A stretch of 20,062 nucleotides of DNA from assembly GCA_015522765.1 (NCBI GenBank), contig WALR01000125.1, positions 1 through 20,062 on the forward strand, read 5' to 3'. The stretch is from Candidatus Woesearchaeota archaeon. GTDB taxonomy: Archaea > Nanobdellota > Nanobdellia > Woesearchaeales > WALR01. This document shows, piece after piece, positions 995 through 13,642 of the stretch. Position 1 is the first letter of the stretch. Every line of letters starts with the position of its first letter. The notes below the pieces were generated by a model. It did no database searches. It was not told where the DNA came from and saw only the letters and a list, made by a program, of their open reading frames with translations. The translations under genes were made by a program, and so were the position numbers.

Positions 995-1117
995 CCCCCC
1001 GTAGCTCAGTGGCTAGAGCGCTCGGCTGTAGATTCTCCTCGACGCTGCACAAATGCATGGGATGAAAGAGAGACAGCAGCCACCGAGAGATCCCCGGCTC
1101 AAATCCGGGTGGGGGGA
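995..1117 (+). tRNA. tRNA-Tyr (GTA) with a 50-nt intron
   Basis: Acceptor stem CCCCCCG/TGGGGGG starts with C1-G72, the archaeal Tyr identity pair, with A73 at 1117. D-arm GCTC/GAGC. Anticodon stem CTCGG (1021-1025)/CCGAG (1083-1087), anticodon GTA at 1028-1030. T-arm CCCGG/CCGGG. The anticodon loop CTGTAG...A is interrupted after position 37. The T-loop reads CTCAAAT, so position 54 is C instead of the almost universal T; the rest of the fold is regular. No CCA is encoded (TTC follows A73). It is the first of three plus-strand tRNA genes upstream of rpoH. Confidence 0.93.
1032..1081 (+). other. Canonical (37/38) archaeal intron of tRNA-Tyr
   Basis: The 50-nt intron forms a bulge-helix-bulge. 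Exon C32-U33-G34-U35 pairs with intron G1079-A1078-C1077-G1076 (last pair G-U). The 5' bulge is A36 G37|A1032 and the 3' bulge is C1080 C1081|A1082. An inner helix continues with T1033-A1075 and TCTC (1034-1037) against GAGA (1070-1073), with C1074 bulged. Cleavage in both bulges gives a normal 7-nt anticodon loop. Confidence 0.88.
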
Positions 1118-1147: not shown

Positions 1148-1291
1148 TAAGCCGAAACCCCCAAAACCGAACATGAACTATATCTTTAGCCTCAGCAGTG
1201 TCAACAAAAAAATTTCAGGTCTTATGGGAAGGCTATTCTTAAGCACAACTCACAATCACACTCGCAATACGCCCTGGTGGTGTAGTCCGGT

Positions 1292-1308
1292 ACCTCGCAA
1301 GGCGGCAA
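1292..1308 (+). other. D-loop intron (about 20/21) of tRNA-Asp
   Basis: 17-nt insertion ACCTCGCAAGGCGGCAA. It folds as a bulge-helix-bulge: exon C17-C17a-G18 (1287-1289) pairs with G1305-G1304-C1303; the 5' bulge is G1290 T1291|A1292; the inner hairpin is CCT (1293-1295)/AGG (1300-1302) with loop CGCA. The 3' bulge is around C1306-A1308, with outer pairs G1285-C1309, A1284-T1310 and T1283-A1311. The exact 3' cut could be off by one base. Confidence 0.82.
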
Positions 1309-1348
1309 CTATCATGAAGCCCTGTCGAGGCTTCAACCCGGGTTCAAA

Positions 1349-1368
1349 AGCAGGAAACTGCCTGAAAG
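1349..1368 (+). other. T-loop intron (59/60) of tRNA-Asp
   Basis: 20-nt insertion agcaggaaactgcctgaaag. T-loop bases U54-U55-C56-A57 (1343-1346) pair with intron U1363-G-A-A1366, a perfect 4-bp central helix. The 5' bulge is A58 A59|A1349 and the 3' bulge is A1367 G1368|T1369. An inner helix GCAG (1350-1353)/CTGC (1358-1361) is capped by a GAAA tetraloop, with C1362 unpaired. The T-stem is the outer helix. This is a near-canonical splicing motif. Confidence 0.88.
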
Positions 1369-1414
1369 TCCCGGCCAGGGCGTACATGCGTATGGGCCGG
1401 TAGCTCAGCCTGGA

Positions 1415-1431
1415 AGCGGGAAGCTGGGCAA
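1415..1431 (+). other. D-loop intron (about 20/21) of tRNA-Lys
   Basis: About 17 nt, read as AGCGGGAAGCTGGGCAA; identical A residues on both sides leave a one-base ambiguity (1414-1430 fits equally). Exon C1409-C1410-U1411-G1412 can pair with G1428-G1427-G1426-U1425 (two G-U pairs). A GAA bulge (1413-1415) and a short hairpin GC (1416-1417)/GC (1423-1424) follow. The bulge-helix-bulge is weaker than in tRNA-Asp, but site and length are the same. Confidence 0.75.
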
Positions 1432-1471
1432 TAGAGCGTCTGACTTTTAATCAGATGGTCGCGAGTTCGAA

Positions 1472-1485
1472 AGAAAAACTGAAAA
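1472..1485 (+). other. T-loop intron (59/60) of tRNA-Lys, 14 nt
   Basis: Insertion AGAAAAACTGAAAA. T-loop U54-U55-C56-G57 (1466-1469) pairs with intron U1480-G-A-A1483 (G57-U1480 wobble). The 5' bulge is A58 A59|A1472 and the 3' bulge is A1484 A1485|T1486. Little remains inside except a G1473-C1479 pair closing an A-rich loop. Site and central helix match the tRNA-Asp T-loop intron. Confidence 0.85.
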
Positions 1486-1524
1486 TCTCGTCCGGCCCAT
1501 GCATAATCACAGGAAGGGAAAAAC

Positions 1525-13470: not shown

Positions 13471-13517
13471 TTTTGTTTTTATTTTTTGTTTTGAGAGGAC
13501 AGAAACAGCCGGATAAA

Positions 13518-13619
13518 TGGGGCCGCCGCGATTCGAACGCGGGTTGCCAGCATTCCGTAAGGCGTCAGACCGCCAGGAACCCCAGGCTGGAGTGATAGTC
13601 CAACCTACACTACGGCCCC
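13518..13619 (-). tRNA. tRNA-Pro (GGG) with a 27-nt intron
   Basis: On the minus strand: acceptor GGGGCCG/CGGCCCC fully paired, A73 at 13518, anticodon stem CCAGC/GCTGG, T-arm CCGCG-TTCGAAT-CGCGG. The anticodon loop is CTGGGG plus T after removal of 27 bases, giving anticodon GGG at 13583-13581. The D-stem has three Watson-Crick pairs (GTG/CAC). No CCA is encoded. It is a single-gene unit between two minus-strand protein genes. Confidence 0.9.
13553..13579 (-). other. 37/38 intron of tRNA-Pro
   Basis: The 27-nt insertion lies between G37 (13580) and T38 (13552). It holds a hairpin GGCG (13574-13571)/CGCC (13564-13561), and TTCC...GGAA at its ends. The central helix against the exon is imperfect: C32-G55, U33-G56 (wobble), G34-C57, then G35/A58 mismatch (13555-13558). 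It is therefore a relaxed bulge-helix-bulge. Confidence 0.8.
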
Positions 13620-13642
13620 ATACAATGCGGTGAACGAAACTC

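Follow-up and report, generated by a model that had tools for sequence, protein, structure and literature searches.

Non-canonical tRNA introns are said to occur in the Thermoproteales, reportedly described by Sugahara in 2008 and Fujishima in 2010. The two adjacent genes studied here, tRNA-Asp(GUC) and tRNA-Lys(UUU), resemble these in carrying several introns per gene at non-canonical positions. They are located in a stretch of 20,062 nucleotides (from here on the window), which is contig WALR01000125.1 (C125) of the 961,221-base, 167-contig genome of a Candidatus Woesearchaeota archaeon (GCA_015522765.1; completeness 85.4%). Whereas the Thermoproteales are Crenarchaeota with (alpha-beta)2 splicing endonucleases bearing a Crenarchaea-specific loop (CSL), at least in the excerpts available of the sources, the present genes belong to a DPANN lineage in which one alpha4-like endonuclease gene was found.

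Another likeness concerns ARMAN-2, as ultrasmall archaea with non-canonical introns are known there too. According to the accessible part of the report (PMC12397907), however, its epsilon-2 endonuclease (EndA) is a three-unit fused chain with an ARMAN-2 type specific loop (ASL) of 11 residues, whereas the protein found here has 185 amino acids and no insertion. Related by descent are the Nanoarchaeota, DPANN relatives in which N. equitans has an (alpha-beta)2 and Nst1 an alpha4 enzyme; the available passages of PMC4033280 describe the alpha4 of Euryarchaeota as cutting only the canonical bulge-helix-bulge (BHB) and state that the Nst1 alpha4 cuts canonical introns only, a rule that a broad Woesearchaeota alpha4 would contradict. 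The M. jannaschii alpha4 EndA (1a79) differs in that the alpha4-like gene sits here in genomes with relaxed, non-canonical introns. More generally, two reviews and a 2025 structure paper, in the sections that are accessible, associate the diversification of tRNA introns with endonucleases that possess special subunits and loops. The open-licence PMC literature yielded no paper on the tRNA introns or endonuclease type of Woesearchaeota, while prior notice is possible in subscription journals and GtRNAdb; one paper containing both 'Woesearchaeota' and 'splicing endonuclease' deals, in its accessible part, with group I introns in rRNA.

The results support the conclusion that the insertions in the window look like BHB-type tRNA introns. 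Taken as a whole, we consider it probable that BHB-family introns have proliferated here, that they tie up the tRNA elbow in the precursors, that a single alpha4-like EndA cuts the relaxed motifs and that the exons are joined by RtcB-type ligation. The two genes and their introns are as follows (scores are those of R1, our own covariance model, which covers both genes over their full length):

1271..1382, plus strand: tRNA-Asp(GUC) gene, precursor 112 nt, mature 75 nt (R1 53.5 bits)
1292..1308, plus strand: Asp D-loop intron of 17 nt after G18 G19 U20, central helix with 3 of 4 pairs (BHB scan)
1349..1368, plus strand: Asp T-loop (59/60) intron of 20 nt, UUCA/UGAA central helix, GAAA-capped hairpin
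1394..1499, plus strand: tRNA-Lys(UUU) gene, precursor 106 nt, mature 74 nt (R1 61.8 bits)
1414..1431, plus strand: Lys D-loop intron of 18 nt, its GCCU/GGGC central helix accompanied by an inner one of 3 bp
1472..1485, plus strand: Lys T-loop (59/60) intron of 14 nt and bulge-helix-loop type, with a UUCG/UGAA central helix but without an inner one

An initial annotation of the window had placed a D-loop and a 59/60 T-loop insertion in each of these genes, and its coordinates are right. The T-loop lengths and the uninterrupted anticodon loops of Asp and Lys agree with it as well; of the two D-loop insertions, both put at about 17 nt, the Asp intron has that length and the Lys intron is one nucleotide longer. 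Removal of the introns restores a standard tRNA in both cases, as follows from the comparison with intronless relatives. Spliced Asp aligns gap-free with the intronless Asp of relative L073 (66/75 identical), the other five of six intronless Asp relatives needing 1-2 gaps. Spliced Lys aligns gap-free with the intronless Lys of relatives L056 and L073 (69/74 identical), and four of the six alignments shown are gap-free (seven relatives compared). The D-loop introns were placed by scanning for a four-base helix with three-base bulges that leaves a standard D-loop once the intron is removed; the placements given are the best-scoring of several, with alternatives scoring lower.

Across the order, the pairing of the T-loop insertions exceeds what chance would give. 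We compiled 77 T-loop introns (74 from relatives, the two of the window and that of tRNA-Pro(UGG) in the same genome), without favouring a paired central helix in the choice of candidates. Bases 54-57 pair with the expected intron bases at all four positions in 64 of the 77 and at three positions in the other 13, against 2.8% with a complete helix in letter-shuffled introns; the pairing of 54-57 with UGAA that had been noticed in both window T-loops is indeed present. The D-loops, too, show a helix between exon and intron next to a 3-nt bulge where the cut would fall, with all four pairs in Lys and three of four in Asp. Moreover, base 57 covaries with its partner: A57 stands opposite U in 43/50 introns, G57 opposite C in 13/27 and opposite U in 10/27. 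A C partner is thus found in 13/27 introns with G57 versus 1/50 with A57 (Fisher p = 1.2e-6, which is overstated as the rows are related). Despite this relatedness, the T-loop introns vary in length from 14 to 94 nt.

The motifs are mostly relaxed. None of the four window introns fully conforms to the strict helix-bulge-helix-bulge-helix (hBHBh') form: in the Asp T-loop one extra C faces the 5' bulge, the Lys T-loop lacks an inner helix, the Asp D-loop has its incomplete central helix and in the Lys D-loop one mismatch precedes the outer helix. Minimum-energy folding gave the expected or a similar motif in four of nine isolated arms; when the precursors of both genes were folded whole, the motif appeared in the Asp T-arm alone, which shows it in isolation as well. 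For the Asp D-loop the isolated arm resembles the motif whereas the whole precursor does not; for the Lys D-loop both folds depart from it, and the Lys T-loop helix is absent from the minimum-energy folds. The initial claim that every insertion can form a BHB was therefore too strong.

For the wider comparison a strict motif was defined by 4/4 central pairs, no offset and at least three contiguous inner pairs, a string rule that has no calibration against an organism whose motifs are all known to be strict. By this rule 17 of 121 introns in relatives are strict. Among the 74 T-loop introns 9 are strict, 36 distorted and 29 show the central helix and 3' bulge only; for the 47 introns at 37/38 the numbers are 8, 18 and 20, with 1 other. 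In the window's own genome the Pro and Arg T-loop introns are strict, those of Asp and Ala distorted and that of Lys is of the bulge-helix-loop type; none of its five canonical-site introns is strict (two distorted, three helix-only), and in the Phe D-loop intron the central helix counts 4 pairs and the inner one 5. Relative G010, complete (100%) and in one contig, carries 59/60 introns in 13 of 27 tRNA hits, 12 of them with 4/4 central pairing and 6 strict, the choice of candidates having favoured a paired central helix in these counts (28 hits at E up to 1, several of them weak; one 21-nt hit omitted, two T arms unresolved).

Two further observations were made in G010. Its tRNA-Gly(UCC) (L168) appears by eye to be interrupted twice, by a D-loop insertion and by an intron where the T stem meets the T loop, at about 53/54. 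The introns of four of its tRNA genes (L164, L166, L169 and L172) share a CTCAC..GTTCG element, and these are four of 11 matches in 1.19 Mb to a pattern that was written after the repeat had been seen; intron copying and repeat-derived introns are both possible.

The initial annotation had expected a genome-wide pattern of introns, which the covariance-model search confirms: 6 of the 30 tRNA genes found in the own genome (isotypes read by eye from the anticodon loops) contain together nine non-canonical introns, in Asp (D, T), Lys (D, T), Phe (D), Pro-UGG (T), Ala-CGC (T) and Arg-UCG (D, T). Canonical 37/38 introns are present in Tyr, Cys, Trp, Leu-CAA and Pro-GGG. By eye, those of Trp (L021) and Leu-CAA (L022) contain GATGA and CTGA words resembling those of C/D-box guide RNAs. 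A full tRNA set comprises about 45 genes and about a third was thus not found; assembly gaps and further disrupted genes are both possible.

The same insertions are widespread among relatives. By its sequence the host is a Woesearchaeota-like DPANN archaeon: the closest named RpoB'' relatives are Woesearchaeota and other DPANN metagenome-assembled genomes (identity up to 72%, in a listing that may omit records very near the window's own genome), and the RpoB'' tree does not place the genome in any supported small group. Out of 80 relatives fetched, the 75 whose sequence extends 700 nt or more upstream of rpoB'' were examined with a finder that requires U8, A14 and TTCRA besides a paired acceptor and a T stem of 5 bp. 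It recovered Asp in 68/75 and Lys in 47/75; the remaining 7 and 28 relatives, respectively, may lack the gene or carry other interruptions, and Lys anticodon arms were resolved in 39 of the 47 (8 unresolved). T-loop introns occur in 50/68 Asp and 24/47 Lys genes, 37/38 introns in 28/68 Asp and 19/39 resolved Lys genes, and D-loop introns in 16/68 and 11/39. On the RpoB'' tree (68 Asp-bearing loci plus the window; 12 of the 80 relatives dropped) the Asp T-loop intron, present in 51/69 rows, requires at least 6 changes and the Lys T-loop intron (23/45 rows) at least 11, both counted without a shuffle control. On account of this difference the Asp intron looks older and steadier than the Lys one. 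Overall, the introns of the window seem to be part of a proliferation common across the order.

With respect to the enzyme, the outcome differs from the (alpha-beta)2 or epsilon-2 endonuclease that had been predicted initially. The only EndA-like gene in the own genome, found with PF01974 and with a 28-sequence EndA profile alike, encodes one alpha of 185 amino acids. It is a single subunit of about 180 residues with both domains, and its fold matches over 170 residues, closest to alpha4, in a comparison that lists the best chain per entry and in which the beta chains 3ajv_A, 3p1z_A and 2zyz_A do not appear. In the alignment of 28 of 30 sequences (L125 and L128 omitted) the triad Tyr121/His131/Lys162 and Trp182 are invariant; the site loop measures 6-7 residues throughout, with no ASL or CSL insertion, and the modelled monomer has a two-residue turn between strands 43-45 and 48-51. 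The protein thus lacks the 15-18-residue CSL of the corresponding (alpha-beta)2 type, and as one unit it also differs from the epsilon-2 type, which consists of three fused units (a 395-residue chain) with an ASL. Neither PF01974 nor the EndA profile, which misses the Aeropyrum beta, revealed a second or beta subunit gene in the own genome. The relatives mostly have one EndA gene per genome (3/60 without a PF01974 match), and the complete G010 has a single one, even when matches up to an E value of 1 are admitted. Relative G035 has two full-length EndA genes (C81, C26), either through contamination or as beginning subunit divergence.

RtcB was not found in the own genome. Since 56/60 relatives have it, an assembly gap is the likelier cause, and a peculiarity of this genome was rejected. 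In relative G026 (C87) the RtcB match is split in two inside one open frame of 987 amino acids, which looks intein-like.

According to the explanation that we prefer, the insertions would be BHB-family tRNA introns that have proliferated through the Woesearchaeota, those at 59/60 mimicking the canonical 37/38 geometry. At either site a 5-bp stem carries a 7-nt loop; loop bases 1-4 would pair with as many bases of the intron, and cleavage, as read from the sequence, would take place between loop bases 6 and 7. The T-arm precursor would in this way copy the anticodon-arm motif, with loop bases 6|7 separated at both 37/38 and 59/60, and the shared geometry may explain 59/60 as a favoured second site. 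The D-loop introns appear to open right after G18-G19 in Lys and one base later in Asp. Consequently the elbow partners G18, G19 and U55, C56 would be held in splicing motifs until the introns are removed, so that no folded elbow would be available to guide the enzyme. A. fulgidus alpha'2 can cleave a relaxed 37/38 motif within full-length pre-tRNA, according to the accessible part of the source, but the tRNA body is unlikely to assist in this way here if, as we infer, the elbow stays unformed as long as 54-57 and G18-G19 are engaged in splicing motifs. A single alpha4-like EndA would then cut the window motifs, relaxed ones included, without ASL or CSL, and an RtcB-type ligase would join the exons.

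A loop-less enzyme together with relaxed introns implies breadth without ASL or CSL, an unseen partner, or motifs that are stricter in the cell than they appear. We lean slightly towards the first, in which a homotetrameric loop-less alpha4 cuts relaxed D-loop, anticodon and T-loop motifs without help from the elbow, and in which the rule fails that diversified introns require an (alpha-beta)2 enzyme or an epsilon-2 one, equipped with a CSL or an ASL. An (alpha-beta)2 heterotetramer, with a beta too diverged to recognise and the loop-less alpha as its catalytic half, seems rather improbable to us, even though three points speak for it. The EndA profile overlooks the Aeropyrum beta at E up to 1, while detecting the N. 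equitans beta NEQ261 (8.9e-19) and the Pyrobaculum beta (0.03); by sequence EndA is as near to the alpha subunits of N. equitans and M. kandleri as to the M. jannaschii alpha4; and the invariant Trp182 is shared with NEQ205 and the M. kandleri alpha, where M. jannaschii has Tyr. On the other hand, the complete one-contig genome shows no second gene and EndA is a full two-domain alpha with a fold closest to alpha4. Nor would a hidden beta explain the breadth, as the available portion of the source on the M. kandleri (alpha-beta)2, itself loop-less, portrays that enzyme as constrained. Sequence and fold cannot choose between a loop-less alpha4-like enzyme that cuts relaxed motifs and a diverged, undetected beta subunit.

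A little less probable still is an ordinary strict alpha4 acting on introns that adopt the strict BHB in the cell, so that their positions alone would be unusual. The strict Pro and Arg T-loop introns, the well-paired Phe D-loop intron and the 6/13 strict introns of G010 (with the selection mentioned) speak for it; the Lys T-loop intron without inner helix and the low share of strict motifs in relatives (9/74 at the T-loop and 8/47 at 37/38, with 29 and 20 reduced to central helix and 3' bulge) speak against it. Decaying genes, or insertions kept in odd tRNAs, we regard as most improbable in view of the intact exons, the pairing and covariation across relatives and the search for intact copies elsewhere, which the initial annotation had named as a possible refutation and which gave no second intact Asp or Lys(UUU) gene among the 30 found in this 85.4% complete genome. 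Pseudogenes were rejected as both genes are single intact copies, and group I introns as the insertions measure 14-20 nt and are accounted for by BHB pairing.

In many members of one order, introns that are non-canonical and for the most part relaxed thus occur together with just one gene for a loop-less enzyme. The rule of endonuclease-intron co-evolution can thereby be put to the test using one small protein and a pair of short RNAs, and the question arises which other residues could confer breadth.

The window contains two more tRNA genes:

995..1117, plus strand: tRNA-Tyr(GUA), interrupted at the canonical 37/38 site by a 50-nt intron (Rfam tRNA 50.5 bits; ARAGORN with introns; R1)
13518..13619, minus strand: tRNA-Pro(GGG) with a 37/38 intron of 27 nt (R1 60.7 bits; labelled Ser by ARAGORN)

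Run without introns, ARAGORN reports zero tRNA in the window although it holds four, which should serve as a warning for annotation. With introns allowed it recovers Tyr and a minus-strand tRNA at 13517-13620 labelled Ser, and still misses Asp and Lys. The Rfam tRNA model alone gave 24 matches in the genome and missed 6 of the later 30, Asp and Tyr among them; R1 was therefore trained, on 15 intronless tRNAs of the own genome and 9 of relatives, a set that includes Asp and Lys of relatives and excludes the two window genes. Finally, tRNA-Val(GAC) of the own genome (L014:1501-1574) has, by eye, a C in place of U at position 33.
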